Positions 2,105-53,081 of a stretch of DNA of 64,000 nucleotides are shown piece after piece (within the stretch, counting starts at the first letter, position 1; each line of letters opens with the position of its first letter). The DNA is from Leuconostoc carnosum (GTDB lineage: Bacteria > Bacillota > Bacilli > Lactobacillales > Lactobacillaceae). Location: the NCBI RefSeq assembly GCF_014207505.1, contig NZ_JACHGL010000003.1:1-64000 (forward strand), in the 5' to 3' direction. Below the pieces are notes generated by a model that worked only from the letters and a program-made list of their open reading frames with translations, searched no databases and was not told the origin of the DNA. Made by a program: the position numbers and the translations under genes.

Positions 2105-2213
2105 ATTACTTGAGAGTGAGCGCTGCGCCGTTAAAATTTACGATGTGATCCAACAAAATATACCAATAGTTAAATATCACAAGATAACCAGCGTGGTGAC
2201 ACTCGTTTCCTCC
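2105..2213 (-). promoter_or_regulatory. alsS leader: Shine-Dalgarno, nested stems, then start codon
   Basis: GGAGG (2209-2213) is followed by complementary arms 2200-2204 with 2114-2118, 2189-2193 with 2121-2125, and 2176-2181 with 2144-2149. Nine nucleotides then lead to the ATG. A 10-codon GTG reading frame also starts 6 nt after the Shine-Dalgarno, so a leader peptide is an alternative. Arms are short (5-6 bp) but properly nested. Confidence 0.45.
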
Positions 2214-2225
2214 ATCATTTGTTAA

Positions 2226-2241
2226 TAACCATATCATAGCA
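2226..2241 (-). promoter_or_regulatory. Probable alsS promoter, extended -10
   Basis: TATGAT at 2233-2238 is preceded by TGC, an extended -10 box. No convincing -35 is seen. Transcription would start near 2226. Confidence 0.45.
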
Positions 2242-2323
2242 CTTTTATATAATAAATTGTGAGTGAAAGATTGTGAAGTTTATCTTTATATCAACGTTTG
2301 TAGATTCACAATGTTATTTTTGC

Positions 2324-2354
2324 ACAAAAAAACCAGCTCATAAATAACTGGTTA
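2324..2354 (-). terminator. Terminator after obg
   Basis: On the minus strand the stem AACCAG/CTGGTT is followed by a run of seven T. It lies just downstream of the obg stop codon. Confidence 0.75.
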
Positions 2355-2377
2355 TCTATCATCTATTAATTTTTTAA

Positions 2378-3697
2378 TTAGTCACTGAACTCAAAAACAA
2401 AGTCAGAATCATTAATACGAACATCATCACCATCTTTAGCGCCAGCCTTACGTAAGGCATCATCAACGCCCATATGACGTAATTGACGTCCAAAACGCAT
2501 AATTGTAGCATCCCGCTGAATATTAGTCATCAAGAATAGCTTCTCAACTTCATCACCGCCAACGACCCACTGTTCATCCTCTGCTGACCAATTAATTGTG
2601 AAATCATGCTTTTCTGGCTTAAAGTCATAAGTCTTTTCTGTCTCATCAACTTCAATTGCTGGACGATAACTTTCAGGAGATGGAGCTTTTTCAAGCATTT
2701 CCGCTGTTAAAGTCATTAATTCTTTCACATGATCACGTGTTAGTGCAGAAATCGGCAGAATAGTTGGTGTCTCTAATAAGCCTGAATCAGCTGCTACTTT
2801 TTCTCTAAACTCAATCAAATTCTCAGCTGAATCTGGCATATCCATTTTTGTTGGTACCACAATTTGTGGACGATTAAGAATGGTTTCATCATATTGTTGT
2901 AATTCTGTTAAGATTTTACGATATTGTGTATAAGGATCTGTTCCTTCAATACCTGACATATCAACTAAATGTAAAATAACCTTTGTTCGTTCCACATGTC
3001 GTAAAAATCGGAAACCTAAGCCAATCCCTTCAGAAGCCCCTTCGATTAATCCGGGTAAGTCAGCCATGACGAAGTCTCGCCCATCATCTAAACGTACCAT
3101 CCCAATATTTGGTGCTAAAGTTGTAAAATGATAAGCTGCTATCTTTGGTTTTGCATTTGAAACAACTGACAATAAAGTAGACTTTCCAGCTGATGGAAAT
3201 CCAACTAATCCAACATCAGCCAGTACTTTCAGTTCTAATTTCAAATTACGTAGCTCACCTGGTTCTCCGTTTTCAGAAAGTTCAGGCGCAGGGTTAGCCG
3301 ACGTCGCAAAATGAATATTACCACGACCGCCACGACCGCCACGAGCTACAACGAGTTCTTGCCCATTCTCTAATAAATCACCTAAAACTTCACCCGTATC
3401 AATGTTACTTACTGTCGTGCCTTGTGGCACTTTAATATAACGGTCGTCAGACGAGGCACCAGTCATCCCTTTTGTGCCACCATTACCACCTGGTTGTGCT
3501 TTAAAATGGCGATTATAACGAAAGTCCATCAAGGTACGTAATCCTTCATCAACTTTAAAAATAATGGATCCACCGTGACCACCATCACCGCCAAAGGGAC
3601 CACCCATTGGTTCGAATTTTTCGTGACGAAACGAAACGATGCCGTCGCCACCTTTTCCAGCTTTTACTTCAATTTCTGCTTGATCTACAAATGCCAT
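2378..3697 (-). CDS. obg: Obg GTPase, ribosome assembly and stress
   Basis: An essential GTPase that binds the 50S subunit. It has the glycine-rich Obg fold at the N terminus (starts [19 protein letters not shown]), a G domain with the P-loop GFPSAGKST and DLPGLIEG switch II, and the C-terminal OCT domain typical of Firmicute Obg. About 439 residues from this start. An in-frame TTG six codons upstream lengthens the frame, but the family starts at MAFVDQ. The ATG has no adjacent Shine-Dalgarno; AAGGAG lies about 105 nt upstream beyond three nested stems. Confidence 0.95.
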
Positions 3698-3809
3698 ATT
3701 GTTTAGAGCACGCAAGAAAAGTCATTAAGAGGTTCCTAATCTCAGTAAATAGTCATTAAACTATTCAATACGGAACATTGATTTTTCCCAACTCGTGCCT
3801 TTTCTCCTT
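3698..3809 (-). promoter_or_regulatory. obg leader: Shine-Dalgarno, three nested stems, then start codon
   Basis: AAGGAG (3804-3809) precedes arms 3794-3799 with 3707-3712 (one G-U), 3772-3776 with 3732-3736, and 3760-3765 with 3748-3753 (6-bp apical hairpin, loop 3754-3759). Nine nucleotides separate the last arm from the ATG. No other Shine-Dalgarno is near the start. Confidence 0.5.
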
Positions 3810-3885
3810 GTCTGCCTATAATTCATGAGCTTGCGATAATTAACACTCTAGTTTAACATAAAACAAACTTTAGTGCGAATAACTG

Positions 3886-5697
3886 CTATATTTCAGCCTT
3901 GAGTCCTGATCCAGTTTGTAAACTCATATGGATCACACGTGCTAGTTTTTCATTAATCCCAATGGCTTCTAATTCTTTAACACTCGCTGCTGCAATTTTT
4001 GGTAATGACCCAAATTCACGTAATAACTTTTGTCGTGTTTTTGGTCCAACACCGTCAATTGTATCTAAACGTGAAGCCAGTGAATTCTTACTACGTAATT
4101 GCCGATGAAAATTAATCGCAAATCGGTGCACTTCTTCTTGCACACGCTGAACTAAAAAGAAACCTTCTGATTGCTTATCTAACGTTACAATTTGCTCAGT
4201 TTTACCATCAATTAAATCAGCCGTCTTGTGTTTGTCATTTTTAACCATCGCTGCGATTGGCACATTTGTCATACCTAATTCATCTTCTAGTACTTCTTTG
4301 GCAGCATGTAATTGTATCTCACCACCATCCATCAGAATCAAATCAGGCATCGTGCCACCCTCTTTAAGCAGGCGACCATAACGTCGACGGATAACTTCTT
4401 GTGTTTCTGACCATTCATCGGCATGATCAACTGACTTAATTTTATATTTTCGATATAAATCCTTATTCGGTACACCATCATCGAAAACGACCATTGCGCT
4501 AACAATCTCAACGCCTTGTGTATGCGAATGATCAAATGCTTCAATGCGATGCCCCAATGGTAGATTTAATGCATTTGTAATTTCAGCCATTGCGCCGGTT
4601 GTTTTTTTCTCGTTTAATTGCATTAATCGAAATTTTTCTTCCAATGCAATTCTAGCATTCTTACCTGCTAAATCTAATAAATCACGTTTTTCTCCTCTAA
4701 TCGGTGTCCGTACAGGTACTGATAACACCTCAGATAATGCTATGGTATCAATGCCTTTAGGTACGAGAACCTCACGTGGTTTTTGAATATTACGCTGTAA
4801 ATAAAATTGTTGGATAAAGCTGAGGACTTCTTCTTCAGCTTCGCCAACAACAGAAAAAGTACGCTTGAATTGGCGAATTAATCGAGCTTGACGTAAGAAG
4901 AATACTTCAACAGTCATCCACCCTTTATCCAAATAATAATTGAATAAATCACGTGGCGTTGTATCTTTAGACAACACACGTTGACTTTCAACAGTTTCAT
5001 CAATATATTTCAATTGATCTCTCAAATCAGCAGCACGTTCAAATTCTAATGTATCTGCAGCAATTTTCATTTTTTCATTTATTGAACGTTTAACAGTGGC
5101 AGTATCCCCGTCTAAAAAGCGCTTAATCCGCTCAATTTGTGTTTGATACTCACTGGCCGACACTTCGTGCCAACATGGTCCTAAACACTGACCCATATTG
5201 TAATATAAACAAGGGCGTCCTTGATAACCATTACAACGACGTAAAGGATAATTTTTTTCTAAAAAACGCAAGGTTTCTTGTGCAGCGTAAACGTTTGGAT
5301 ACGGACCAAAATAAAAGCCGCCATCTTTTTTCACTTCATTGACTAGCGACATTTTTGGATCACGTTCTTTGCTAATTTTAATATAAGGATAGCCTGTACC
5401 ATATTTTAGTCGAATATTGTAATATGGTTTATACTTTTTAATCAACTCATTTTCTAACAAAAAAGCTTCTTTATCAGAATTAGTAACAATAAAATCAAAA
5501 TCAACAATATTTTGGACTAGCTCGGCTGTCTTGCCATCATGATCTTGCTTGAAGTAAGAACGTACACGATTCTTTAGATTTTTAGCTTTACCAACATAAA
5601 TAATTTTATCGTTTTTATCCTTCATTTGATATGACCCAGGTTCTGCTGGCAGTAACGTGAGTTTTTGTTCGATGTGTTTCGAGGGATTTGCTAACAT
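3886..5697 (-). CDS. uvrC: Excinuclease ABC subunit C
   Basis: The dual-incision nuclease of nucleotide excision repair, acting with UvrA and UvrB. An N-terminal GIY-YIG domain (LPAEPGSYQMKD then IIYVGKAKNLKNR) makes the 3' cut. It is followed by a UVR motif (EFERAADLRDQLKYI), an RNase H-like domain and a C-terminal helix-hairpin-helix pair (DTIDGVGPKTRQKLL). About 603 residues, normal size. The start MLANPSKHIEQ is preferred over an upstream in-frame codon because a promoter lies between them: TGG-TATAAT ends six bases before this ATG. That spacing and the absence of a Shine-Dalgarno suggest a leaderless mRNA. Confidence 0.94.
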   Translation of the reverse strand: MLANPSKHIEQKLTLLPAEPGSYQMKDKNDKIIYVGKAKNLKNRVRSYFKQDHDGKTAELVQNIVDFDFIVTNSDKEAFLLENELIKKYKPYYNIRLKYGTGYPYIKISKERDPKMSLVNEVKKDGGFYFGPYPNVYAAQETLRFLEKNYPLRRCNGYQGRPCLYYNMGQCLGPCWHEVSASEYQTQIERIKRFLDGDTATVKRSINEKMKIAADTLEFERAADLRDQLKYIDETVESQRVLSKDTTPRDLFNYYLDKGWMTVEVFFLRQARLIRQFKRTFSVVGEAEEEVLSFIQQFYLQRNIQKPREVLVPKGIDTIALSEVLSVPVRTPIRGEKRDLLDLAGKNARIALEEKFRLMQLNEKKTTGAMAEITNALNLPLGHRIEAFDHSHTQGVEIVSAMVVFDDGVPNKDLYRKYKIKSVDHADEWSETQEVIRRRYGRLLKEGGTMPDLILMDGGEIQLHAAKEVLEDELGMTNVPIAAMVKNDKHKTADLIDGKTEQIVTLDKQSEGFFLVQRVQEEVHRFAINFHRQLRSKNSLASRLDTIDGVGPKTRQKLLREFGSLPKIAAASVKELEAIGINEKLARVIHMSLQTGSGLKAEI

Positions 5698-5703
5698 AGT
5701 TTT

Positions 5704-5712
5704 ATTATACCA
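5704..5712 (-). promoter_or_regulatory. uvrC promoter abutting the start codon
   Basis: Extended -10 box TGG plus TATAAT (5704-5709) with only 6 nt (AAAACT) before the ATG. Transcription starting 6-7 nt after the -10 would begin at the start codon. Confidence 0.6.
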
Positions 5713-5732
5713 AGCCTTGTATACTTTTTGGC

Positions 5733-5760
5733 AAAATAAAAACACGCGTTCGCGTGTTCC
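5733..5760 (-). terminator. Terminator after pyrG
   Basis: GC-rich hairpin AACACG/CGTGTT at 5741-5758, followed on the minus strand by a T-rich stretch. It separates pyrG from the uvrC promoter. Confidence 0.75.
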
Positions 5761-5806
5761 TACTTATCATTCTACTAAATGAATGATTTAAACATTTAGT
5801 CATGTA

Positions 5807-7435
<1,629 letters not shown>

Positions 7436-7486
7436 TCATGATTCAGCGCGATGCGCGCACAACGTTTCAGGGGTAAAAATAAAATA

Positions 7487-7580
7487 GAAAAGCCCCCAAG
7501 ATTACCTTGGGAGCTTTTAACGTCTGTCCCAATAAATGGGAGCCCTAATATATAATACAGAGTTAACCTATATTTGTCAA
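7487..7580 (-). promoter_or_regulatory. pyrG promoter and CTP-sensing attenuator
   Basis: A consensus promoter (TTGACA 7575-7580, 17-nt spacer, TATTAT 7552-7557) would start transcription at GGGCTCCC (from 7545). Downstream, arms 7506-7518 and 7488-7500 form a stem with GCTCCC in the 5' arm, followed by a T-rich tract: an intrinsic terminator. This matches the pyrG mechanism of B. subtilis and L. lactis. At low CTP the polymerase stutters, adding extra G residues at the GGG start. The G-run then pairs with the pyrimidine-rich terminator arm and prevents termination. Confidence 0.88.
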
Positions 7581-7621
7581 ATATTTATTTAAGTTGTTAC
7601 ACAATAAGTCCCAAAACATGA

Positions 7622-9016
7622 CTACTTGTTAACACGCTTAAATACTGTAATAGCTTCAACATGCGTTGTTTGAGGGAATTGGTCAATAGGTTGTACAGGA
7701 CCATCAATTTCAAACCCTTCGTCCAAAATTTGAACCGCATCACGTGCTAATGTCGCTGGATTACAACTAATATAAACAAAAGTCTCAGGTTTCATCGCAC
7801 TCACTGCTGAAATCAGTTCTGCTGTCAATCCCTTTCGTGGTGGATCAACAAAAACAACATTTGGTTTTAGACCTTCTGTTGCCCATTTTTCCATTTGTTC
7901 GGGTGCATCTGCTGTGACAAATTCAACATTATCAACATGATTATTCTTAGCATTCTTTTTGGCATCAGCTACAGCATCTGCCACAACCTCAACACCATAA
8001 ACTTTCTTCACCTGGTCAGCGATTGATAAAGTAATTGTTCCAATACCAGAATAAGCATCCACCACAATATCAGTTGGCTTCAAATTAGCTTTTTCGGCTG
8101 CTAATGAATACAATACCGCCATGGTTTGTGGATTAACTTGATAAAACGAATTAGGTCCGATAACAAAATCTTTGCTCATTAATTGGTCATGAATTTCATT
8201 AGCACCCCAAATAGTCTCATTTTGTTCACCCATAATCACGTTATTGTCTTCATGATTAATGTTGTGGATAAAGCTCTTTAATTCAGGGAGTTTTGCCTGT
8301 AACTGTGTAGCAATTGCCTCTGCTTCTGGTAACTTTTTACTATGTGTCACAATAACTACCATTAATTCATATGAATAGTATCCACGGCGTGCCATAATAT
8401 GACGGATAACACCTTTTTTAGTCGTCTCATCATAAGCTGAAATGCCTAAATCACGTAAAATATCTCGTGTCACAGTCACTGCTTCATCAACTTTTTCATC
8501 TTGAATATAAAAATCTTCAATTGGTACCAGTTTATGTGATCCGCGACGGTAAAAACCAGTTTCCAAACGACCATTTATCATTTTTACTGGTACTTGTGCC
8601 TTATTTCGATACCTATATGGATTTTCCATACCAATTGTTGCATTTACATCAACATCGATATTAACTTTCTTAAATAATTGCACAACCTGTTCCTGTTTAA
8701 AAATTAATTGTGCGTCGTATTTCAAGTTAGCTAGTGGTGCAATACCAGTTGCAATAGCATCTTGATTCACATTTTCGGCACGATTAGGTGATGATTGTAT
8801 GCGCTTTGATACACGTCCAAAAGCGTAACTCTTCAATACTTTTGTAATACCAACTCTAACTATTTCACCAGGAATTGCATCTACCACAAAAATAGGAAAG
8901 TTATCAATTTTGATAACCCCCATGCCTTGATAGGTTATATCCACGACAGTAGCTTCAACCTCTTGATTTTTGACTACTGGTGCCTTCTCTTTGTATACAC
9001 GATTAGCTTTTGCCAT
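7622..9016 (-). CDS. rlmCD: 23S rRNA (uracil-5-)-methyltransferase, RlmCD type
   Basis: A TrmA/RumA-family SAM-dependent enzyme that makes 5-methyluridine in 23S rRNA. It has an N-terminal TRAM RNA-binding domain (about residues 15-75), the SAM-binding motif VDAYSGIGTITL and the catalytic cysteine in YISCNPATLARD. Firmicutes carry two or more paralogues, so the exact target (U747 and/or U1939) cannot be assigned from sequence alone. It follows dagK on the same strand. Its Shine-Dalgarno AAAGGA is separated from the ATG by a perfect 8-bp hairpin. Confidence 0.85.
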   Translation of the reverse strand: MAKANRVYKEKAPVVKNQEVEATVVDITYQGMGVIKIDNFPIFVVDAIPGEIVRVGITKVLKSYAFGRVSKRIQSSPNRAENVNQDAIATGIAPLANLKYDAQLIFKQEQVVQLFKKVNIDVDVNATIGMENPYRYRNKAQVPVKMINGRLETGFYRRGSHKLVPIEDFYIQDEKVDEAVTVTRDILRDLGISAYDETTKKGVIRHIMARRGYYSYELMVVIVTHSKKLPEAEAIATQLQAKLPELKSFIHNINHEDNNVIMGEQNETIWGANEIHDQLMSKDFVIGPNSFYQVNPQTMAVLYSLAAEKANLKPTDIVVDAYSGIGTITLSIADQVKKVYGVEVVADAVADAKKNAKNNHVDNVEFVTADAPEQMEKWATEGLKPNVVFVDPPRKGLTAELISAVSAMKPETFVYISCNPATLARDAVQILDEGFEIDGPVQPIDQFPQTTHVEAITVFKRVNK

Positions 9017-9065
9017 AATTTTTTGCGTATCACAATAATAACTTAATGTGATACTACTTTCCTTT
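9017..9065 (-). promoter_or_regulatory. rlmCD leader: Shine-Dalgarno, 8-bp hairpin, then start codon
   Basis: AAAGGA (9060-9065) is followed by perfect 8-bp arms 9047-9054 and 9027-9034 (GTATCACA/TGTGATAC) with a 12-nt loop, then 10 nt to the ATG. No start codon follows the Shine-Dalgarno at normal distance, so a leader peptide is unlikely here. Confidence 0.6.
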
Positions 9066-9093
9066 CAGGGTTTTTCGACACCCACTTAAAATA

Positions 9094-10083
9094 TTAGTTC
9101 GTATTTAGCTTTTCAACATCTTTTACAAACTGTTGTGCTTTCTGAGTAGAAATAGTAGCTGCTTCAGGCATCCCTGATCGATTAGCAACAAATTCAATAT
9201 GCTGCTGAAGATCATTAAATACCATTGGCGCATCGCCACCATACTCACCATCTAAGTTGACTTTCAATTGATCATCATCAAGTGGTGTGATTTCTACTTT
9301 ACTGGTTTTTTTGTAAATCATTTGTGAATTATCAATATGCTTGCCACCATTTAACATTTGAGCAATCATTTGTAAAATTTGCGCCAAGTTCGACTCTTTA
9401 ATGATTAACAGTGTAAATTTACCATCATCTAATTTAGCATCAGGAACGATTGACTCAAAACCGCCCACTGAGTTCGTTAGCGCCAAAAAAATCATTGATA
9501 TTTTACCAGAATATTCGCCATCATCGTACGTTACCTTGGCATTAACTGGCTTAATACGCGTAATTAATTCTGCACCCTTCACTAGATATGCAACGTAACC
9601 ATACAAAGATTTCATTAAAGAAGGTACAGTGTAAGTTACTTCACTAATCGTTCCCAACGCTGCAATATTCATAAAATATTTTGTTTCATCATGATTGCTC
9701 ACTTGACCAATATCCATCTTGATCGTCTCATGTTGAAAAATGACCTTTGCAGCTTCTAACGGTTCATCTCGTGGCAATTTTAAAGCACGGGCATAATCAT
9801 TGGTTGTACCGGCTGGAATAACAGCCATCATGGGTCTTTTAGTTAATGGGGCTAATCCATTAACAACTTCATTGATTGTACCATCACCACCTGCGGCTAC
9901 AATCAAATCAAACCCTACCTTTGCTGCTCGCGCTGCTTCTTTTGCTGCAGACATTGGTTCTGGTGTAGTAGCAAAAGCGGACGTCTCATAACCTGCTTGT
10001 TCGTATACTTGTAATATATCTAACATTTCACGTTTGATCGTTTCGCGCCCTGACGTTGGATTATAAATAATTCGTGCTTTCAT
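9094..10083 (-). CDS. dagK: Diacylglycerol kinase, DagK/DgkB family
   Basis: A soluble lipid kinase that phosphorylates diacylglycerol, recycling it into phosphatidic acid during lipoteichoic acid synthesis. About 329 residues, starting MKARIIYNPTSGRE, where the DAGK catalytic domain begins. The nucleotide-binding signature is VAAGGDGTINEVVNGL. The upstream in-frame codons are not used in homologues and lie inside an RNA stem. It is downstream of gatB and upstream of rlmCD. A second paralogous domain protein occurs at 33.7 kb. Confidence 0.88.
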   Translation of the reverse strand: MKARIIYNPTSGRETIKREMLDILQVYEQAGYETSAFATTPEPMSAAKEAARAAKVGFDLIVAAGGDGTINEVVNGLAPLTKRPMMAVIPAGTTNDYARALKLPRDEPLEAAKVIFQHETIKMDIGQVSNHDETKYFMNIAALGTISEVTYTVPSLMKSLYGYVAYLVKGAELITRIKPVNAKVTYDDGEYSGKISMIFLALTNSVGGFESIVPDAKLDDGKFTLLIIKESNLAQILQMIAQMLNGGKHIDNSQMIYKKTSKVEITPLDDDQLKVNLDGEYGGDAPMVFNDLQQHIEFVANRSGMPEAATISTQKAQQFVKDVEKLNTN

Positions 10084-10215
10084 TTTAAAGTGTGACCTGA
10101 CAGCTGTCTGCAAGATACTAGTGAACAAATAGTTTTTCTAATTATCAATTAGAAAAACTATTTGTTCACTAAAATCATTACACTGTCCAACACGTTTCCG
10201 TGCACACTATCCTTT
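10084..10215 (-). promoter_or_regulatory. dagK leader: Shine-Dalgarno, multi-stem structure, then start codon
   Basis: AAAGG (10211-10215) is followed by closing arms 10203-10208 and 10089-10094 (AGTGTG/CACACT). Inside are a CACG-GAAA-CGTG tetraloop hairpin (10191-10202), arms 10183-10187 with 10099-10103, and a perfect 24-bp hairpin. Five nucleotides follow to the ATG. A 9-codon GTG frame starting 2-3 nt after the Shine-Dalgarno is an alternative reading. Confidence 0.6.
10120..10170. repeat. Perfect 24-bp inverted repeat with 3-nt loop
   Basis: Arms 10120-10143 and 10147-10170 are exact reverse complements around ATC. No T-run follows on either strand, so it is not a standard terminator. 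It is the apical part of the dagK leader structure. Confidence 0.95.
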
Positions 10216-10256
10216 CATCATACTATGTACACAGGCCAAAGCCTGATTAAAAATTA

Positions 10257-20962: not shown

Positions 20963-21796
20963 TTATGCCTCATGTTTATAAATTTCTTCTAGATAGTTTC
21001 CTGCAGTCACTAAAATTGGTTCACCATTTTTCAAATTAGTATCAACGTGCAATAGTGATGTAAACCGATCAAGTAACCTTGTTGTAGAACGTCCTTCGGC
21101 AAAAACAGCTGTTCCAACCACAGTGCCATCAAATTCACTGACCAACGTTTGCATGCCTTGTATTGTGCCGCCAGCTTTCATAAAATCATCCACAATTAAA
21201 ACACGAGAACCGGTACGTAATGAGCGTCTTGACAATTCCATTTTTTCAACACGTTTCGATGAACCCGTTAGATAATTGACCGATACAGTTGGTCCTTCCG
21301 TTACTTTGGCATCATCGCGGACAATGACAAATGGCACATTTAGCTGTTCAGCAACTGCTTGAGCTAATGGGACCCCTTTTGTGGCAGCAGTCATCACGGC
21401 ATCAATATTATCATGTAAATATTGTGTTGCAATTAAACGTCCAGCTTGGCGCAAGACATCCGGACGGCCCAATAAATCAGATAAATAAACATATCCACCA
21501 GGCAACACACGTGTTTCGTCATTAACTTCCTGACGAATTCCTTCAATAAATTCTTTAGCTTCTTCTTCTGTCATATATGGCGTAAAACGCGTACCACCTG
21601 CTGCACCTGGTACTGTTTCTAATAAACCAGTGCCACGTTCATGAAATGTACGTTTTAAAATAGATAAATCCTCAGAAATAGAAGATTTCGCTGAATCATA
21701 ACGCTTAGCGAAGTAAGACAAAGATATTAGTGTACGTGGGCGCTCAAGCATATAGCGCGCCATATCAACAAGACGATCAGAACGACGTGTTTTCAT
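20963..21796 (-). CDS. purR: Purine operon repressor PurR
   Basis: A Gram-positive PurR that binds PurBox operators and responds to PRPP. It has an N-terminal winged helix (KTRRSDRLVDMARYMLERP then SAKSSISEDLSILK) and a phosphoribosyltransferase-like domain with the PRPP loop VLIVDDFMKAGGTIQGM. 277 residues from MKTRRSDR. Paired PurBoxes lie over its promoter, suggesting self-regulation. Its AAAGGAG is separated from the ATG by a 9-bp stem. An upstream in-frame ATG would give four extra residues but lies in the stem's 3' flank. Confidence 0.93.
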   Translation of the reverse strand: MKTRRSDRLVDMARYMLERPRTLISLSYFAKRYDSAKSSISEDLSILKRTFHERGTGLLETVPGAAGGTRFTPYMTEEEAKEFIEGIRQEVNDETRVLPGGYVYLSDLLGRPDVLRQAGRLIATQYLHDNIDAVMTAATKGVPLAQAVAEQLNVPFVIVRDDAKVTEGPTVSVNYLTGSSKRVEKMELSRRSLRTGSRVLIVDDFMKAGGTIQGMQTLVSEFDGTVVGTAVFAEGRSTTRLLDRFTSLLHVDTNLKNGEPILVTAGNYLEEIYKHEA

Positions 21797-21840
21797 ATTA
21801 TATAACATGCCAAAAACATATTTAGCACGTATTCTCCTTT
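21797..21840 (-). promoter_or_regulatory. purR leader: Shine-Dalgarno, 9-bp stem, then start codon
   Basis: AAAGGAG (21834-21840) is followed by arms 21822-21830 and 21805-21813 (nine pairs, two of them G-U) with an 8-nt loop, then 8 nt to the ATG. An 11-codon GTG frame starts 5 nt after the Shine-Dalgarno and its TGA overlaps the purR ATG, so coupling to a leader peptide is the alternative. Confidence 0.5.
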
Positions 21841-26075: not shown

Positions 26076-26865
26076 GATTTAAAAATAAGCGATGCGCATT
26101 GGTGCGTGTAATATCTGACATCTCTTTAGGCGATAAATTCAACGTTTCAGCTAAAGAATCAACAACATATTTAACAAATGCAGGTTCATTATCTTTACCA
26201 CGGAATGGTGTTGGTGTTAGATATGGCGCATCCGTTTCGACCAAAAGACGTTCCAAAGGAACTGCTTGAGCTGCTTGGCGGACATCATCAGCTTTTTTAA
26301 AAGTAACAACCCCGCTAAATGAGATGTGCATGCCTAACGCTACAAATGCCAAAGCTTGCTCCGGTGTACCTGAAAAGCTGTGCATAACACCTTTATGTAC
26401 ACCACTTGCTTTCAGCATGTCATATACATCAGAAAATGCGTCACGATTATGAATAATTACTGGCAAATCATATTTTTTTGCTAAGGCCAGATGCTTTTTA
26501 AAAGCTTCTTTTTGCACATCGTGAGCTACTGTCTCCCAATAATAATCCAACCCAGTTTCACCAACACCTACAACCTTTTCTTGTTGTAACTGCATTTCTA
26601 ATTTTTCAGCCGCTGCGCTATCAAATGCCATTGTATCTTCTGGTTGAAAACCAAGTACAGCATAAATATTGTCATGTGCCTGTGCAATGGTTAAGGCACG
26701 CTCGTTAGCCAATGCATCATACCCAACAATATTCATCTCCATCACACGAAATTCATTTGCACGGCCAATATAGGCGGGCACATCATGAAAAAGTTTATCA
26801 TCATTCAAATGCGTATGTGAATCGTAGCTATCAGCTGGTGTTTTTGTTAAATCATAAATTGCCAT
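26068..26865 (-). CDS. tatD: TatD family metal-dependent hydrolase
   Basis: A TIM-barrel DNase/hydrolase of the TatD/YabD family. 265 residues with the metal site SHTHL near residue 15, VGETGLDYYW, VIIHNRDA and VETDAPYLTP. It starts the operon tatD-rnmV-rsmA. The ATG has no near Shine-Dalgarno; GGAGG lies about 70 nt upstream beyond a structured stretch. Confidence 0.92.
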   Translation of the reverse strand: MAIYDLTKTPADSYDSHTHLNDDKLFHDVPAYIGRANEFRVMEMNIVGYDALANERALTIAQAHDNIYAVLGFQPEDTMAFDSAAAEKLEMQLQQEKVVGVGETGLDYYWETVAHDVQKEAFKKHLALAKKYDLPVIIHNRDAFSDVYDMLKASGVHKGVMHSFSGTPEQALAFVALGMHISFSGVVTFKKADDVRQAAQAVPLERLLVETDAPYLTPTPFRGKDNEPAFVKYVVDSLAETLNLSPKEMSDITRTNAHRLFLNHD

Positions 26866-26938
26866 GTTATGTTTACACGTAATGCTAGATATTAGTATTT
26901 CTATGTATTAATACATCCGTAGCTTTACGCATTCCTCC
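26866..26938 (-). promoter_or_regulatory. tatD leader: Shine-Dalgarno, nested stems, then start codon
   Basis: GGAGG (26934-26938) is directly followed by arms 26929-26933 and 26881-26885 (AATGC/GCATT), enclosing a palindromic hairpin at 26903-26916 (ATGTA-TTAA-TACAT). Fifteen nucleotides follow to the ATG. The closing stem is short, so this is one of the weaker cases. Confidence 0.35.
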
Positions 26939-36787: not shown

Positions 36788-36829
36788 GATCCTCCTAAAA
36801 TTTCAAAATAAAAAAGCTAGATTGTCGCA

Positions 36830-37059
36830 AATTAAAAGCGCGAACCAACAAATAGTCGGTACGCGCTAACGTGACGACTATCTATACAGATGGACCACCT
36901 TGGTTAAAGTGTAACAGAGGCTTATCAGAATAAAACACGCCATAATCATTAATGGCTATTATCTTCTTATAAACACTTTGTCGGTCACTTTAAAACCGGT
37001 TGGTGCAGGGTCATCGTGCTGTATCACTCGCCTGCTCTTGATAGCTGTTTTTAAATTGT
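36830..37059 (-). promoter_or_regulatory. metK leader: SAM-I/SAM-IV-like riboswitch with terminator
   Basis: On the minus strand ATCAAGAG, GATGA and ACCAACC occur in SAM-I order. P1 is 37040-37045 with 36955-36963, P2 is 37031-37035 with 37005-37009 (GCAGG/CCTGC), and P3 is 36995-36998 with 36982-36985. The usual internal P4 is absent; a hairpin (36939-36943 with 36952-36956) follows P1, recalling the SAM-I/IV variants. Downstream a terminator (36837-36846 with 36858-36867, then T) competes with an ATAGTCG/CGACTAT antiterminator. Confidence 0.7.
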
Positions 37060-39509: not shown

Positions 39510-40217
39510 TTAAAATATTTTTCCAACGCCATAGTGGATCATAATTGTTACCAAACCAATGATAACATTGCGTAGCATTGCTCGTTTTACTAAACCATTT
39601 GACATTGAAGCACTTAAAAAGCCTGTTAAAGCTACTGCTACAACCGTAGCGCCAATTGTGGCTATGAATTGATAACGCACTGGTGACAAAATCAACGCAG
39701 CTAACGGAAATATACCACCGAGCGCCGCACTAAATAATGATGCCCAAGCAGCAGACCAAGGATTCAAATAATGTCCTAACGTAATATCGTATTTAACGCT
39801 AAGCATTGTTTCTAATGGACTTTTTGATAGTAGTTCATCTGCAATAAGTACTGCTGTATGACGCGTCACACCACGATCAACGTAAAAATTTTCAACTGTT
39901 TTATGTTCACTGGCAAAGTCTGTTTTCAATAGCTCTCGTTCTTGTTCAACAACAACTTTCTCACTATCTGATTGTGAACTAACTGATGCATATTCACCAG
40001 AGGCCATTGATAAGGCACAGGCTAATAAATCAGCTAAGCCAGCAATAAAAATTGCAAAACTATTTGTTGTAGCTGCAGCAACAGAAAACAACACACCGAC
40101 AACTGTTAAAATACCATCATTTGAACCTAACACACCGGCACGAACAGCATTTAGCTTTTCATCCATTGTCATGTGTTCTTTTTTTGATTTATTATTTTGT
40201 CTAATTTTTATATCCAT
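39510..40217 (-). CDS. VIT family iron/manganese transporter, second copy
   Basis: 235 residues of the VIT1/CCC1 family, with NDGILTVVGVLFSVAAAT in helix 1, a cytoplasmic metal-binding domain rich in Glu, and SMASGEYASVSSQSD. It lies 38 nt after its paralogue on the same strand, a tandem duplication. It probably moves Fe2+ or Mn2+ out of the cytoplasm. Its GAGGGGG is separated from the ATG by a 7-bp hairpin. An internal MTMDEKLN start is possible but has poor Shine-Dalgarno support. Confidence 0.85.
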   Translation of the reverse strand: MDIKIRQNNKSKKEHMTMDEKLNAVRAGVLGSNDGILTVVGVLFSVAAATTNSFAIFIAGLADLLACALSMASGEYASVSSQSDSEKVVVEQERELLKTDFASEHKTVENFYVDRGVTRHTAVLIADELLSKSPLETMLSVKYDITLGHYLNPWSAAWASLFSAALGGIFPLAALILSPVRYQFIATIGATVVAVALTGFLSASMSNGLVKRAMLRNVIIGLVTIMIHYGVGKIF

Positions 40218-40254
40218 TCTTTGTTAACAATGAGTTCAACACTCATTCCCCCTC
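40218..40254 (-). promoter_or_regulatory. VIT leader: Shine-Dalgarno, 7-bp hairpin, then start codon
   Basis: GAGGGGG (40248-40254) directly abuts perfect 7-bp arms 40241-40247 and 40229-40235 (AATGAGT/ACTCATT) with a 5-nt loop; 11 nt then lead to the ATG. Confidence 0.6.
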
Positions 40255-40255
40255 T

Positions 40256-45011: not shown

Positions 45012-45075
45012 GGAAGGAACCGCACTATTCATGACTAATACCATTGTCATATACTAAGTGCTTACGTGCTTTAAT
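45012..45075 (+). promoter_or_regulatory. DUF1275 leader: Shine-Dalgarno, nested stems, then start codon
   Basis: GGAAGGA (45012-45018) precedes arms 45022-45026 and 45057-45061 (GCACT/AGTGC) enclosing 45031-45035 with 45046-45050 (ATGAC/GTCAT). A second GTGC (45066-45069) could also close the stem, 6 nt before the ATG. An 8-codon leader frame (ATG 45031 to TAA 45057) abuts an in-frame GTG and is an alternative. Confidence 0.45.
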
Positions 45076-45744
45076 ATGTCAGAAATTTGTACTGTACACC
45101 CCATTCACGAGCGACTACCTATAGCTTTATTACTAGCTACTAATGCAGGATTTGTCGATGCTTATACCTTTCAATACCACGCCGACCGTTTCGCTAGCTT
45201 GCAGACCGGTAATATTATTCAAGCTGGCATTTTTTTAGCTAGAGGACAATTTCTCGATGCTTTGGATTTTATCATACCGATTGTATTCTTTCTATTAGGT
45301 GCGGCTTTTAACAGTGTTTTGAAACACAACTTTAAACCTGGACTGTTATCCACACAACAACATAGCCTGCTGGTCGAATCAATAGGCATTATTATTGTGG
45401 TATTATTAAGTAGCCACCTATCTGGAACTGCTTTTATTACATTATTATCTTTTTTCTTAGCTATTCAATTAGACGCCTTTCCAAAAGTTCAAGGTCTCCC
45501 ATTCACTAGCGTGATGTCAACTGGTAATTTACGTAGTGTTGGTGCTAATTTGGTTACTTTTTTCTATACTAGAGAACCCAAAGCACGCCAAAATGCTGGC
45601 TTATTTTCATTAATTATCCTCGCTTTTTTATTTGGCGCACTGATATCCGCTTTTCTAACAAACTACTTTAAAGAACTAACCTTGGTGGTTTCTAGTGTAG
45701 TTCTGATTACTATCTTCTTTATTATCCATGATCATTCAAAATAA
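45076..45744 (+). CDS. DUF1275 (YoaK-like) membrane protein
   Basis: About 222 residues from MSEICTVHPIHERLP, with six hydrophobic helices. TNAGFVDAYTFQYHADRFASLQTGNI is typical of the DUF1275 family, and MSTGNLRSVG matches its second conserved motif. Function unknown in the family. A GTG six codons upstream immediately follows a short leader frame and could also be a start. Confidence 0.8.
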   Translation: MSEICTVHPIHERLPIALLLATNAGFVDAYTFQYHADRFASLQTGNIIQAGIFLARGQFLDALDFIIPIVFFLLGAAFNSVLKHNFKPGLLSTQQHSLLVESIGIIIVVLLSSHLSGTAFITLLSFFLAIQLDAFPKVQGLPFTSVMSTGNLRSVGANLVTFFYTREPKARQNAGLFSLIILAFLFGALISAFLTNYFKELTLVVSSVVLITIFFIIHDHSK

Positions 45745-45749
45745 AAGTG

Positions 45750-46092: not shown

Positions 46093-46191
46093 TTCTATTA
46101 ATTATGACACGTCCCTCACCAAAGCATTGGTTACTGTTTAATCGTATTTCTAAAATCTAAACAACAGACACATGTATAGGAGATTATAGTA

Positions 46192-47040: not shown

Positions 47041-47082
47041 GTTACTAAATGACATATTTATATGTAAAAAAGGAGAAAATTT

Positions 47083-47925: not shown

Positions 47926-48011
47926 GTTTCTAATTTTTATATCAACACATGATAGTATAATCTGTCATGTACATACTGCAACAATTATTATTTTTAAAAA
48001 GGAAGTCAGCC

Positions 48012-49343
48012 ATGGAAATACGAAAACAGTATATTGAATTATTACGTGAATTGATTGCTATACCAAGTGTCTCTGCGAAAGAAGCCTATTTACCCGAAGC
48101 AGCACATCTCATAGCCGATGCTTTTCGTGGATTAGGTGCTGATGTCATCTATGACGATACTTATTTTGCACCATTCGTCCTAGCAACTTTCCAGAGCAAG
48201 GTACCAAATGCTAAGCAGCTTGTGATTTATAATCATTATGATGTACAACCTGCTGAACCACTAGATTTGTGGGCAACAGATGCTTGGACCCTAACAGAAA
48301 AAAATGGTAAGTTGTATGGCCGGGGTGTTGATGATGATAAAGGTAATTTAACGGCAAGGTTGTCAGCTATTGCGGAATATTTAACTGAACATAATAATCA
48401 ATTACCGATAAACATTACCTTTATTGTCGAAGGATCTGAAGAAACTTCATCACGCCATCTAGACGACTACCTGGCTAAACATCATCATCATTTAAGTGCT
48501 GACTTGGTTATTTGGGAGTCAGGCGGTAAAAATGTGAATGAGGAAATTGAGATTTTCGGCGGTAATAAAGGCATTGTTACCTTTGACATGACCGCTAAAA
48601 CAGCAAATAATGATTTACATTCGTCGTTATCTGCTATTGTTGATTCAGCATCACTGCGTTTATCACAAGCTATTGCGTCCTTATTTGATCATCATGGTAA
48701 CATCGCTGTTCCTCACTTCTATGATGACATTGCCATACCAAACGCGAGAGAGAAACAACTCGTTGCAGCGTTACCACTAACACGCGACTCACTAATTACG
48801 CAACATGGTATTAAAGTCCCACTATACACTGATCGTAACGGTGATGATTTAAAAGAAACCCTTTATTTCAAACCAACAATCAACATTGAAGGTATTCAGT
48901 CGGGTTATAATAGTGCTGGCGTTAAAACTGTTTTACCAGCTACAGCCACGGCTAAAGCCGAAGCTCGTCTGGTGCCTAATATGGATCCAGATGTTACTTT
49001 ACAGCGAATCAAAGATCATTTGCAAGAACAAGGTTTGTCAGATATAGTAGTAACCAAGACGCTGGGGCAACCTGGTTATCGTAGTGACATGTCTGATTCT
49101 GAAATTTTACGTGTTATTGATATCACTGCCCATTATTACAAAGCCCAACCAATAGTGATACCAACTTCTCCCGGAACTGGTCCTATGTTTTATATCCATG
49201 AGGCCCTACAAGCCCCTATCGCTAGTTTAGGTATTGGCTATAGCCATGCCTTAGACCATGCCCCAAATGAAAATATTCGTCTAACTGACTATAATCAACA
49301 TATAGACGTGATTAAAGAACTGATTAGGAGTTATGAATTATGA
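48012..49343 (+). CDS. M20 family metallopeptidase (dipeptidase-like)
   Basis: 443 residues from [15 protein letters not shown], chosen because AAGGA stands about 8 nt upstream. The zinc ligands are seen in [10 protein letters not shown] and [10 protein letters not shown], and the catalytic pair in VEGSEETSS. It sits between metQ and metN and overlaps metN by 4 bp, an arrangement known in lactobacilli. It may release methionine from imported dipeptides or N-acyl derivatives (inference). Confidence 0.88.
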
Positions 49344-50419
49344 GTAATCCCATTATTGCACTTGATAATATTAATGTGACTTTCCATCAAAAGAAACGCA
49401 CCATTGAAGCCGTTAAAAATGTCTCAGTACACGTCGAACGTGGTGATGTTTACGGTATTGTGGGCTATTCAGGTGCTGGTAAATCAACCCTTGTTCGTGT
49501 CATTAACCTCTTACAAGAACCAACCAGTGGTTCTGTTATTGTCAATGATGAAACTTTTTTCCAAGCTGATAGTGAAGGTGCTAAAAAAACACGCATTACC
49601 AATAACGACTTACGTAATCGTCGTCGTAAAATTGGCATGATTTTCCAGCATTTTAATTTGCTCAATGAACGTACTGTCACAGAAAACGTCGCTTTTGCAC
49701 TACAAAACAGTGAATTACCAGCAAAAGAAAAAGCTGAAAAAGTCCGTGATTTACTAGCACTTGTTGATTTATCAGATCGTGCCGAACAATATCCTTCACA
49801 ACTTTCTGGTGGACAAAAGCAGCGTGTTGCTATTGCACGTGCTTTAGCAAATGACCCTGAAATTTTAATTTCCGATGAAGCAACATCTGCTTTAGATCCA
49901 AAAACAACTAATCAAATTTTAGCCTTGCTTAAAAAATTGAATAAAGAATTTGGATTAACAATTGTTTTGATTACACACGAAATGCAAGCTGTTAAAGAAA
50001 TCGCCAATAAAGTTGCCGTCATGCAAGATGGTGAGATTATTGAACGCGGCTCATTGCTTGATATTTTCGCACAACCTAATGAACAACTAACCAAAGAATT
50101 TATTGAAACTGCCACAAATATTGATAAAGCCATCGCAACGATTAGTGCACAACCATTGGTCACAAATTTGAAGCCCAATGAATTGTTTGTACGATTATCT
50201 TATGTCGGTGACACAACCGATGAGCCTTTAATTACTGGTTTATTCCGAGATTTCCAAGTAACAGCTAACATTTTGTACGGTAATATTGAAATTTTACAGG
50301 ACACACCTGTAGGCTCATTATTAATCATTCTAGCTGGTACTGCTGAGCAAGTTAAGTCAGCCATCGCAACGTTGGCCGACCATCATGTTGTCATTGAAGT
50401 TATTAAAGGAGGCAAATAA
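49340..50419 (+). CDS. metN: Methionine ABC transporter ATPase
   Basis: 359 residues: ATPase domain with Walker [13 protein letters not shown], signature [15 protein letters not shown] and Walker [14 protein letters not shown], then the C-terminal NIL domain (about residues 275-359) that binds methionine and inhibits the transporter. Paired with metI, it overlaps the M20 gene by 4 bp. Confidence 0.95.
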
Positions 50420-50421
50420 TT

Positions 50422-51117
50422 ATGAGTAAATGGTTTGCAGATACATTTCCAAATGTTGTTTACCAAGGCTGGACTGGTGATACTGGTTGGCTAACTGCCA
50501 TCGGCCAAACATTTTATATGACTTTTGGATCAGCACTTTTTGGTGGTATATTGGGACTAATTTTTGGTATGGGTCTGATTATTACATCATCTAACGGTAT
50601 TTCTCCGAATCGAACAGTTTTTTGGATTCTTGATAAAGTTGTTTCTACGTTCCGTGCGGTCCCTTTTATTATTTTACTAGCCGCCATTGCCCCTCTAACA
50701 AAACTAATTGTTGGTACACAAATTGGTAGCACTGCAGCCCTCGTACCGTTATCATTAGGTGTCTTCCCATTCTATGCTCGTCAAATCCAAGTGGCTTTGG
50801 CAGAAGTTGATAGTGGTATTGTCGAGGCTGCTCAAGCCATTGGTTCATCCTTTTGGGACATTGTCTTCGGTGTCTATTTGCGTGAAGGCCGTTCTGAAAT
50901 TATCCGTGTGTCAACTGTTACTCTGATTAGTTTGATTGGTTTAACAGCCATGGCAGGTGCCATTGGTGCTGGTGGTCTTGGTACTATGGCCTTATCTTAT
51001 GGTTACCAACGATATGCGAATGATACCACTTGGTTAGCAACGCTACTTGTTTTGGTATTTGTATTAATTGTACAAGTTGTTGGTGACATCCTAGCCAAAA
51101 AGTTCAGTCACAAATAA
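50422..51117 (+). CDS. metI: Methionine ABC transporter permease
   Basis: 231 residues with five hydrophobic helices and the coupling motif EAAQAIGSSFWDIVFGVYL. FRAVPFIILLAAIAPLTK is typical of MetI. AAAGGAGG is 8 nt before the ATG. Last gene of the Met T-box operon, closed by a symmetrical terminator. Confidence 0.95.
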   Translation: MSKWFADTFPNVVYQGWTGDTGWLTAIGQTFYMTFGSALFGGILGLIFGMGLIITSSNGISPNRTVFWILDKVVSTFRAVPFIILLAAIAPLTKLIVGTQIGSTAALVPLSLGVFPFYARQIQVALAEVDSGIVEAAQAIGSSFWDIVFGVYLREGRSEIIRVSTVTLISLIGLTAMAGAIGAGGLGTMALSYGYQRYANDTTWLATLLVLVFVLIVQVVGDILAKKFSHK

Positions 51118-51119
51118 TC

Positions 51120-51170
51120 ATAGATGACAAAAAACGATGGTTAATCACACCATCGTTTTTTGTCATCTAT
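51120..51170. terminator. Bidirectional terminator, 22-bp perfect stem
   Basis: Arms 51120-51141 and 51149-51170 are exact complements with a 7-nt loop and internal A/T runs on both sides, between convergent metI and gntR. Confidence 0.85.
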
Positions 51171-51171
51171 T

Positions 51172-51882
51172 TTATCGTGTCAACGTAAATTCAAAACGTT
51201 CGCCAACATAGTACGAACGCACATATTCAAACGGTAACTCAGTATTTTCGGCAAATGACACTTGACGGACAGTCAAAATGGCATCCCCGCGTTTAATTTG
51301 CAAAAGTTCAGATAAACGTTCGTTAGCTAAACCAGCAGAAATTGTTTGTGTTGCCCGACCTGGAACAATGTTTGCTCCTTCAAGCGTCGCATAGAGCGAT
51401 TCAGTCAATTCATTTTTTGAAAAATCTTCAATTAATTTAACTGGTAATGTCGTTCGCTCTAACAAAATTGGTTCATCATCGCCCATTCGCAACCGTTCCA
51501 TCACTAAAACTTCATCATTTTCAAAGAGTTTCAGATGCATCATTTCTGATGCTGATGGTGACGTAATTTTGTAGCTTACCGTCTTTGTCTTGGCCACACG
51601 CCCTGTGCTTGCCATTAACTCAGTAAAACTTGTGATACCCAGCACACGCTCGGATACTTTTTGTTCAGCCACGTAGGTACCAGACCCTATTTTTCGTTCT
51701 AACAGACCCTCATCAACCAATGTTTGAATAGCTTGACGTAAGGTCATACGTGATACATCAAACTCATCTGCTAACTCACGCTCAGCTGGTAAACGCTCCT
51801 GTGCTCGCCATTCACCCGCCTCAACACGCGACTTGATTTGATTATGAATTTGAATATAGCGTGGTATTATTGGTTTTCCCAT
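51172..51882 (-). CDS. nagR: GntR family regulator, NagR/YvoA type
   Basis: 236 residues. N-terminal winged helix (PRYIQIHNQIKSRVEAGEW, then LADEFDVSRMTLRQAIQTLV) and a C-terminal UTRA effector domain. It overlaps nagA by 1 bp and its frame resembles NagR of B. subtilis, which binds glucosamine-6-P or GlcNAc-6-P. A matching operator lies at the nagA promoter. Confidence 0.9.
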   Translation of the reverse strand: MGKPIIPRYIQIHNQIKSRVEAGEWRAQERLPAERELADEFDVSRMTLRQAIQTLVDEGLLERKIGSGTYVAEQKVSERVLGITSFTELMASTGRVAKTKTVSYKITSPSASEMMHLKLFENDEVLVMERLRMGDDEPILLERTTLPVKLIEDFSKNELTESLYATLEGANIVPGRATQTISAGLANERLSELLQIKRGDAILTVRQVSFAENTELPFEYVRSYYVGERFEFTLTR

Positions 51883-53027
51883 TAACTTTCTCGTGCAAAG
51901 CGGCGACCATATGAATATGTTGCCACTAAGTGCATCCTTTCCTCGTCAAAAATATTAAAATCAGCATCTTTCCCAGCTGCCAGATGGCCTTTCTGAGTTA
52001 AACCAAATTCCTGTGCCTGATTAACTGAACTCATTTGTACTGCATCTTGAATACTTGCAGATGTAAATTTCTGAATATTACTAAAGGCATCATCGTATGA
52101 CAAAACTGATCCGGCTAAATGACCATTATCCAAGCGCGCCTGCTTATCTTTAACCGTAACTTTTTGTCCACCCAATTCAGAAATACCGTTTCCCAGTCCT
52201 TCAGCACGCATTGAATCTGTCACTAAATCTAATCTGTGCGCACCCTTTAATCTAAAGGCAATTTCTAACATTTCTGGTACGACATGGAAACCATCCGCAA
52301 TTAGTTCACCAGTAATTGATTCTTCAATCATACCATGCCCCGTCACACCTGGTTCTCGATGGTGTAGCGGGCGTTGCGCATTATACAAATGTGTCATGTG
52401 CGTGGCGCGTGAATGGCGTAATTGGTCACGTGTGGCATTAGAATGACCAATCGAAGGCACAATTTGGTGTGCCAACATGAATGTTTCAAAATCAGGTAAT
52501 CCACCATTTTCAGGGGCATAAGTAACCAAACGAATACGTTCACCTGATAATTCGTACCACTTTTTTAATAGTGCGGTGTCTGGATTGATAATGTATGCTT
52601 CAGGTTGCGCACCCATAAATGTTTTATTAATAAATGGACCTTCAAGATGAATCCCCTGAATAACTGGATTTGTTTTTGCTACTTGATTAATAGTTGATAA
52701 GGCACGTTCAATACGTTGCGGTGATTGTGTCATAGTCGTTGGAAATAGTGATGTAATACCTTCTGTGACCATTTTATTGACCATTTCATCGAGCGCATCA
52801 GCATCACCATCCATTGTATCTAACCCATAGCCACCATGCTTATGAACGTCAATAAAACCTGGCACAATTAACTTACCGGTTCCCTCTTTGACGATTTCAT
52901 CATCATTTTGTGCCACAAAGTCGACCATATAACCAACTTCTTGAATACTATCTGTAAACCGCATAAATGCATCCGGCATATGCTTGTAACCCGTATAAAG
53001 ATTAATATTTTTGAGTAATTTTGCCAT
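51882..53027 (-). CDS. nagA: N-acetylglucosamine-6-phosphate deacetylase
   Basis: Deacetylates GlcNAc-6-P to glucosamine-6-P, in amino-sugar use and cell-wall recycling. About 381 residues from MAKLLKNINLYTG. It is an amidohydrolase with the metal motif PGFIDVHKHGGYG, HLEGPFI, IGHSNAT and THLYNAQ. The longer upstream frame starts at an ATG 0-1 nt from AGGAGG, too close to use. The chosen ATG instead has the Shine-Dalgarno 50 nt away beyond a stem. Confidence 0.93.
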   Translation of the reverse strand: MAKLLKNINLYTGYKHMPDAFMRFTDSIQEVGYMVDFVAQNDDEIVKEGTGKLIVPGFIDVHKHGGYGLDTMDGDADALDEMVNKMVTEGITSLFPTTMTQSPQRIERALSTINQVAKTNPVIQGIHLEGPFINKTFMGAQPEAYIINPDTALLKKWYELSGERIRLVTYAPENGGLPDFETFMLAHQIVPSIGHSNATRDQLRHSRATHMTHLYNAQRPLHHREPGVTGHGMIEESITGELIADGFHVVPEMLEIAFRLKGAHRLDLVTDSMRAEGLGNGISELGGQKVTVKDKQARLDNGHLAGSVLSYDDAFSNIQKFTSASIQDAVQMSSVNQAQEFGLTQKGHLAAGKDADFNIFDEERMHLVATYSYGRRFARES

Positions 53028-53081
53028 TATTTCACGTATGCCAATGGCTACAAATGATACGCATCCACGACACATTCCTCC
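53028..53081 (-). promoter_or_regulatory. nagA leader: Shine-Dalgarno, 7-bp stem, then start codon
   Basis: GGAGG (53077-53081), 13 nt, arms 53057-53063 and 53033-53039 (TGCGTAT/ATACGTG, two G-U pairs), then 5 nt to the ATG. Short GTG and ATG leader frames are also possible here. Confidence 0.4.

Follow-up and report, generated by a model that had tools for sequence, protein, structure and literature searches.

Distant Shine-Dalgarno motifs and variable hairpins ahead of start codons in Leuconostoc carnosum and its relatives: a putative split ribosome-binding site

Nine leaders with a distant Shine-Dalgarno motif

The window analysed here (bases 1-64000 of a single contig; the Leuconostoc carnosum genome totals 1.82 Mb) holds nine genes, alsS, obg, rlmCD, dagK, purR, tatD, the second VIT gene (VIT2), the DUF1275 gene and nagA, whose Shine-Dalgarno motif (SD) lies 31-126 nucleotides (nt) ahead of the start codon; a helix lies between the two. 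This layout had been described in an earlier reading of the letters made without database searches (the sequence-only reading), and its SD and arm positions at all nine genes agree with the coordinates and arms that we remeasured; the gap between SD and stem is 1-5 nt and that between stem and ATG 5-11 nt. A close SD is absent, except for a weak AGGT located 11 nt before the ATG of dagK in the window genome. By string match, the standard anti-SD occurs once in this genome. NCBIfam and Pfam back the families of AlsS, ObgE, diacylglycerol kinase, PurR, TatD, the VIT protein, DUF1275, NagA and GatB, and the rlmCD product is by the same databases a 23S rRNA uracil methyltransferase of the RlmD/RlmC type. 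The remaining gene names in the window, as well as gatC, are presumptive. Upstream stretches were inspected for 59 open reading frames (ORFs), hand-chosen among the 129 listed for the window.

Two tests were applied to the leaders. In the stem test, the best helix closing the spacer between SD and ATG was scored against dinucleotide shuffles (shuffle p). In the arm swap, 5′ arm regions were combined with the 3′ arm regions of the same gene from every other species, using distinct leaders, and the pairing was compared with that of a species' own arms (arm swap P); since related species share arms, this null is conservative. The arm swap of VIT2 is based on eight other species, as the SD of the window genome itself is outside the motif list used. 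The distant (far) SDs and the arms are:

2209..2213, minus strand: alsS far SD GGAGG, spacer 104 nt, ATG at 2104
2200..2204, minus strand: alsS 5′ arm GAGTG, shuffle p = 0.11, arm swap P = 0.0015
2114..2118, minus strand: alsS 3′ arm CACTC, ending 9 nt before the ATG
3804..3809, minus strand: obg far SD AAGGAG, spacer 106 nt, ATG at 3697
3794..3799, minus strand: obg 5′ arm GGCACG, shuffle p = 0.06, arm swap P = 0.0035
3707..3712, minus strand: obg 3′ arm CGTGCT, ending 9 nt before the ATG
9060..9066, minus strand: rlmCD far SD GAAAGGA, spacer 43 nt, ATG at 9016
9047..9054, minus strand: rlmCD 5′ arm GTATCACA, shuffle p = 0.005, arm swap P = 0.0005
9027..9034, minus strand: rlmCD 3′ arm TGTGATAC, ending 10 nt before the ATG
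10210..10216, minus strand: dagK far SD GAAAGGA, spacer 126 nt, ATG at 10083
10203..10208, minus strand: dagK outer 5′ arm AGTGTG, shuffle p = 0.06-0.08, arm swap P = 0.07
10119..10174, minus strand: dagK inner long hairpin, 24 base pairs (bp) by the count of the sequence-only reading
10089..10094, minus strand: dagK outer 3′ arm CACACT, ending 5 nt before the ATG
21834..21840, minus strand: purR far SD AAAGGAG, spacer 37 nt, ATG at 21796
21821..21830, minus strand: purR 5′ arm ACGTGCTAAA, shuffle p = 0.005, arm swap P = 0.0005
21805..21814, minus strand: purR 3′ arm TTTGGCATGT, ending 8 nt before the ATG
26934..26938, minus strand: tatD far SD GGAGG, spacer 68 nt, ATG at 26865
26925..26932, minus strand: tatD 5′ arm ATGCGTAA, shuffle p = 0.005, arm swap P = 0.001
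26875..26882, minus strand: tatD 3′ arm TTACGTGT, ending 9 nt before the ATG
40249..40255, minus strand: VIT2 far SD AGAGGGG, spacer 31 nt, ATG at 40217
40241..40247, minus strand: VIT2 5′ arm AATGAGT, shuffle p = 0.033, arm swap P = 0.0025
40229..40235, minus strand: VIT2 3′ arm ACTCATT, ending 11 nt before the ATG
45014..45018, plus strand: DUF1275 far SD AAGGA, spacer 57 nt, ATG at 45076
45022..45025, plus strand: DUF1275 5′ arm GCAC, shuffle p = 0.24, arm swap P = 0.0005
45066..45069, plus strand: DUF1275 3′ arm GTGC, ending 6 nt before the ATG
53077..53082, minus strand: nagA far SD AGGAGG, spacer 49 nt, ATG at 53027
53065..53074, minus strand: nagA 5′ arm TGTGTCGTGG, shuffle p = 0.15, arm swap P = 0.001
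53035..53046, minus strand: nagA 3′ arm CATTGGCATACG, ending 7 nt before the ATG

Two leaders of the window genome have peculiarities of their own. The inner hairpin of dagK is very long and near-perfect, and no such hairpin was seen in the 16 further dagK leaders from the orthologue set described below; it is possibly a recent palindrome insertion, and possibly a substrate of RNase III. In nagA, an in-frame ATG directly behind the far SD could be wrongly picked as the start.

Covariation, geometry and exchange across the genus

Judged from the window sequence alone, four of the nine stems exceed shuffles at p ≤ 0.05 (rlmCD, purR and tatD, 0.005 each; VIT2, 0.033). As the stems of the window genome are only partly above chance, the orthologues decide. 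The orthologue set comprises the matching region of about 60 kb from 16 of 18 other genomes of the genus, on which the window proteins were placed by tblastn. In G003 and G007, two genomes of the genus, the purR leader is the same as at named L. citreum and L. lactis loci, in line with the assignment to Leuconostoc. A cell denotes one gene in one of these 17 genomes (window genome included); some genes could not be mapped in some genomes. Stems were significant at p ≤ 0.05 in 67 and at p ≤ 0.01 in 43 of the 185 cells with a far and no close SD, a total that includes gene families without any bridge. The corresponding numbers for control cells, which combine a close SD with a decoy far SD, are 6 and 4 of 145. 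Leaders across the genus retain SD and stem, and the letters and lengths of the stem turn over. The rlmCD stem, for instance, is GTATCACA/TGTGATAC in the window genome, a perfect 15-bp helix in genome G006 and ACGACGTAC/GTACGTCGT in G011; the DUF1275 stem, weak in the window genome, is long in several relatives. A far SD without a close one was found in 12 of 13 alsS orthologues and, for purR, in all 17 genomes mapped. The SD core AGGAG of purR is invariant over 15 aligned leaders, with variable arms.

Swapping arms between species lowered pairing in eight of the nine window genes (all but dagK; P ≤ 0.0035) and also in gatB (P = 0.003), compared with P values of 0.07-1.0 in seven control genes without a bridge. 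For purR, pair counting on the alignment was abandoned for the arm swap because MAFFT had misaligned the stems, shifting them by one column between the two clades (near and far) of the genus. When only Watson-Crick pairs were scored, G-U combinations inside the helices outnumbered A-C combinations by 30 to 10 (P = 0.002; 85 stems, 147 leaders), which is expected of a helix in sense-strand RNA and not of a DNA palindrome. The sequence-only reading had proposed that folding bridges SD and start codon and had named missing arm covariation as one of the results that would overturn this; the arm swaps reveal covariation across species, and the helix is conserved over the phylogeny (dagK, P = 0.07). 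Its concern that shuffled sequence might give similar rates of stems is likewise answered, since shuffled sequence or permuted motifs yield far fewer stems in this region.

The helix has a preferred position. Three cells (metK, rnj, yihY), whose stems are not family-wide, were removed, leaving 64 significant cells. The helix ends 8-10 nt before the ATG in 46 of them, the null being flat over 4-13 nt, and starts 1-3 nt past the SD in 41, with the same geometry at spacers of 31-124 nt. The remaining unpaired distance, i.e., the sum of both gaps, has a median of 12 nt (interquartile range 10-15). In ordinary genes of the genus, the SD ends 7-8 nt before the ATG in 152 of 439 cells. Judging from these distances, the base of the helix would sit about where an SD duplex normally ends, with the bridged SD duplex just beyond.

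Close and bridged layouts replace each other among orthologues, which argues for the same job. By eye, gatB is bridged in 9 of 17 genomes and has a close SD in the other 8, including the window genome; for gatC the numbers are 4 and 13 of 17. A close SD is also found in 5 of 17 genomes for tatD and, for lysS (a gene outside the window, see below), in 6 far-clade genomes of 18. The states of gatB and gatC were judged by eye because the automatic close and far labels contain errors; for example, a fortuitous AAAGG within the 3′ arm of gatB (genomes G010 and G011) and GGTG and AGGT in the lysS leaders of G004 and G005 had been taken for close SDs.

Of the seven window genes folded with flanking sequence in the window genome (all but dagK and VIT2), rlmCD, purR, tatD and DUF1275 keep the bridge, and at least three bridging pairs are kept in 89 of 120 cells across genomes. 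Mean SD accessibility, calculated from mean pairing probabilities, which replaced strict sampling, is about the same in bridged leaders (0.58, 120 cells) as in ordinary genes (0.56, 306 cells).

Distribution and frequency

Genome contigs were searched for PurR, and 51 of 80 loci were examined. The order SD, hairpin, ATG was seen by eye at 10 loci of Leuconostoc, 2 of Convivina and 10 of Fructobacillus, as well as at one locus assigned to Lactobacillaceae (L170). Our script returned p ≤ 0.05 for 14 of these 23 loci and 0.055-0.144 for four; at five it missed or misplaced the SD (AAGGGGG-type SD or stray upstream motif). Using a wider SD list, the 23 loci gave 20 distinct leaders and an arm swap P of 0.0005. 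Among the same 51 loci, a close SD was found at 13 Weissella and 2 Oenococcus loci, and the Leuconostocaceae locus L183 has a close SD by eye. At most Weissella loci examined (including L176, L178 and L180-L182), the close SD stands directly behind a GAACGTTCG palindrome resembling a regulator site; in Leuconostoc, related sequence sits further upstream of purR. The bridged layout may have become possible through loss of the overlap between close SD and palindrome.

An annotation-free scan was run with the true SD and, for comparison, with 20 sets of permuted motifs. It gave 4 hits in the window (permuted mean 1.7, maximum 3), 58 in the same region of 11 near-clade genomes (9.1, maximum 14; orthologous leaders are not independent), 12 in the far clade (2.9, maximum 5) and 6 in the window genome outside the window (1.4, maximum 3). 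Four genomes from other genera of the family produced one hit (1.2, maximum 3) and four genomes of other families none (0.6, maximum 2). An initial scan with looser geometry had returned 69 hits in the 11 relatives versus 1-26 in controls. Within the sampled genomes, the bridged layout looks confined to one clade.

Outside the window, scans point to secA, nusG, a tsaC-type gene, tsaD, lysS and pgi in the window genome and to glk in three other genera. From these hits lysS, tsaD and glk were picked and traced through the genus. Their arm swaps, for which the close-SD filter was set slightly looser than for the window genes because of the label errors mentioned above, gave P = 0.0006 for lysS (12 leaders), 0.0002 for tsaD (10) and 0.0002 for glk (21), and 30 of their 43 distinct leaders have stems at p ≤ 0.05. 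In two species the lysS arms read GTGCTCA/TGAGCAC and GTGTTCT/AGAACAC, respectively; an example from tsaD is GTATCTGTAACGAA/TTCGTTACAGATAT. Many of the bridged genes belong to translation, RNA or protein export (obg, rlmCD, gatB, gatC, lysS, tsaC, tsaD, nusG, secA).

Frequencies were estimated using a home-made gene caller trained on 20 window genes. Within the window, 10 of 56 genes have a far SD and no close one; in 232 kb outside it, the same holds for 17 of 210 genes (12/174 plus 5/36), which sets an upper bound of 8%. Strong bridging helices were detected outside the window by scan at 6 of the 210 genes (approx. 3%); the sensitivity of the scan is maybe about half, as it recovers only 4 in the window. 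The chromosomal region covered by the window is unusually rich in the bridged layout. Consequently, the rate of one gene in seven that had been put forward for the chromosome applies to the window only, with approx. 3% to at most 8% elsewhere.

Interpretation and known systems

At the level of sequence, the split site is real, covarying and clade-specific in 13 families, namely the nine window genes plus gatB, lysS, glk and tsaD, with dagK the least certain; this is supported by the arrangement, the covariation, the preferred helix ends, the exchange with a close SD and the restriction to one clade in the sampled genomes. The sequence features of the phage T4 type are found as well: an overlong distance between SD and AUG, a spacer helix with ends near both, and a workable effective spacing. 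The best explanation, which we hold to be very probable, is a passive split ribosome-binding site like those of T4 genes 25 and 38. The 16S tail would pair with the far SD, and the segment between SD and AUG would fold to a helix with hardly any constraint on its sequence or size. This helix would take about 19 to 120 nt out of the path in the nine genes, leaving a few nucleotides unpaired next to the SD and, in most cases, 8-10 nt next to the AUG, and a path so shortened would let the AUG land in the P site. The helix presumably forms on the ribosome, initiation would use the far SD and the distal AUG, and the role of the helix would be mainly passive spacing. It is quite possible, if short of probable, that Leuconostoc, Convivina and Fructobacillus have a second regular class of ribosome-binding site. 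Its hairpin, free in sequence, would dock preferentially with its base 8-10 nt before the AUG and with the SD duplex beyond; the site would be interchangeable with a close SD in evolution, and ribosomes or mRNA-handling factors may have adapted to it.

A number of results weigh against passive bridging. In the window sequence alone, five of the nine stems are not significant (obg, dagK, alsS, nagA and DUF1275; p = 0.06-0.24), and folds with flanks do not favour the bridge in alsS, obg and nagA of this genome, where the obg SD is predicted to be paired in full context. Strict context sampling, which demanded every SD base to be free, gave low values. The minimum-energy effective distance failed to separate real from shuffled leaders; this measure is uninformative, since AT-rich spacers of random sequence likewise give short exterior paths when folded. 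The arm swap missed significance for dagK (P = 0.07) and for gatC (P = 0.25, four sequences), and the excess of G-U over shuffles is not significant either (Fisher P = 0.11). For lysS, tsaD and glk the gap between helix and ATG is less sharp: among their 30 significant leaders, 16 have a gap of 8-10 nt. Concerning frequency, the scan of the near clade elsewhere yielded 6 hits versus 2.0 (maximum 6), that of three further genera 3 versus 2.5 (maximum 3), all of them glk, and the first loose-geometry scan found no excess in the window genome (7 hits, compared with 2-9 in controls). At a strict threshold of p ≤ 0.02, the count falls to 3 of the 56 window genes and to 1 of the 210 outside.

A reading as chance combined with selected examples would be favoured by the fact that the window was picked for its examples, which are two to three times as dense there as in the remainder of the genome sample. 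However, the close-SD control cells, the arm swaps of control genes and the 58 versus 9.1 hits of the region scan in 11 relatives speak against it, and for the set as a whole we judge it refuted by the arm swaps, so that it is hardly credible; the weak DUF1275 and nagA stems of the window genome are individually uncertain. DNA palindromes for regulators, or transcription attenuators, would account for the dyad symmetry being kept, but are very improbable: neither distant species nor different genes have a common sequence, G-U exceeds A-C, and no long T run follows straight after the stems in orthologue leaders (several DUF1275 leaders have TTTTT some nucleotides on). Known RNA families gave no match at the nine leaders at the Rfam gathering score. 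A short upstream ORF using the far SD, from which the main gene would be reached by coupling, is as improbable as palindromes or attenuators. A GTG start is present 5 nt past the purR SD in 11 of 17 genomes, but the five far-clade purR leaders are without it. Upstream starts show no enrichment (start codon 4-12 nt past the SD in 56 of 120 cells, against 45% in shuffles), and frames, lengths and ends vary. Leader-peptide control was rejected on the same count, as a conserved start codon and frame after the far SD are absent.

Hairpins for mRNA stability or RNase III that sit in the leader by accident would fit the very long hairpin of dagK in the window genome. They leave the preferred distance to the AUG, the missing close SD and the exchange with close SDs unexplained, and are improbable. 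A regulatory switch is unlikely, though the least so of these alternatives, and would add to bridging rather than replace it: temperature, Mg2+ or polyamines would open or close the helix and tune the genes together. In Escherichia coli, spermidine stabilises bulged stems between SD and AUG (PMC4191411, excerpt), and many bridged genes serve translation or RNA (obg, rlmCD, gatB, lysS, tsaC, tsaD, nusG, gatC). On the other hand, the stems have no conserved sequence and within a single family can be anything between weak and a perfect 15-bp helix, bridged and close SDs frequently replace each other, and among the window families only purR has the layout in all 17 genomes.

In the whole window, Rfam recognised only two elements at gathering score, neither of them at the nine leaders:

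53788-53859, plus strand: tRNA gene, adjoining the TPP riboswitch
54019-54108, plus strand: thiamine pyrophosphate (TPP) riboswitch ahead of the ORF at 54249, which we take to be a transporter

The metK leader (36788-36900, minus strand) has a conserved core, GTCGTCACGTTA, in 15 of 15 metK leaders of the orthologue set. No Rfam family matched this leader at gathering score, the best match being at chance level (E = 0.48). It could be an undescribed S-adenosylmethionine-responsive leader.

Passive bridging would turn a phage curiosity into a testable rule of bacterial initiation, on the amount and the position of folded RNA that the 30S subunit can accommodate between the SD duplex and the P site. 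Genes that switch between close and bridged SD from one species to the next are natural replicates for measuring cost and benefit directly. Further, start-site prediction and expression design that demand a close SD may misjudge bridged genes.

Among the matches listed in a search of open-licence literature (titles and abstract openings), no report was seen of such a layout, either for Leuconostoc or as a design used throughout a genome. A paper naming Leuconostoc and SD deals, in its excerpt, with spaced motifs of other kinds (PMC5217627), and the excerpt of a paper on cold-regulated 5′ untranslated regions of Acetobacterium bakii does not describe the layout (PMC6239172). For T4 genes 38 and 25, helices cut the distance between SD and AUG from 22 to 5 nt and from 27 to 11 nt, respectively, with mutational support for both and probing for gene 25, whose arrangement is limited to close T-even phages (PMC3014915, excerpt). 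The sequence-only reading named these two genes as precedents; E. coli polyamine-modulon genes such as rmf, rpoE and cpxR, with an obscure or distant SD linked through a bulged stem, are to be added. Of this modulon (oppA, rmf, rpoE, cpxR), the excerpt reports an obscure or distant SD and a bulged stem stabilised by spermidine (PMC4191411). The Leuconostoc leaders resemble it in the obscure or distant SD, the stem near or between SD and AUG and the several genes per bacterium, whereas its stems are bulged and spermidine-responsive and those of Leuconostoc are not known to respond to a ligand. At structured standby sites, hairpins near the ribosome platform are tolerated, being displaced or unfolded in part, which costs energy (PMC3936740, excerpt); there the hairpin is upstream of a normally spaced SD, in contrast to Leuconostoc, where it lies between SD and AUG. 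T4 genes 25 and 38 share with our leaders, as far as the excerpt goes, the overlong distance, the helix in between and the restored effective spacing. Unlike these single phage genes with experimental proof, the layout reported here comprises 13 chromosomal families of a bacterial clade, known from sequence, with spacers of up to 126 nt, a somewhat longer unpaired distance (median 12 nt) and arms that turn over.

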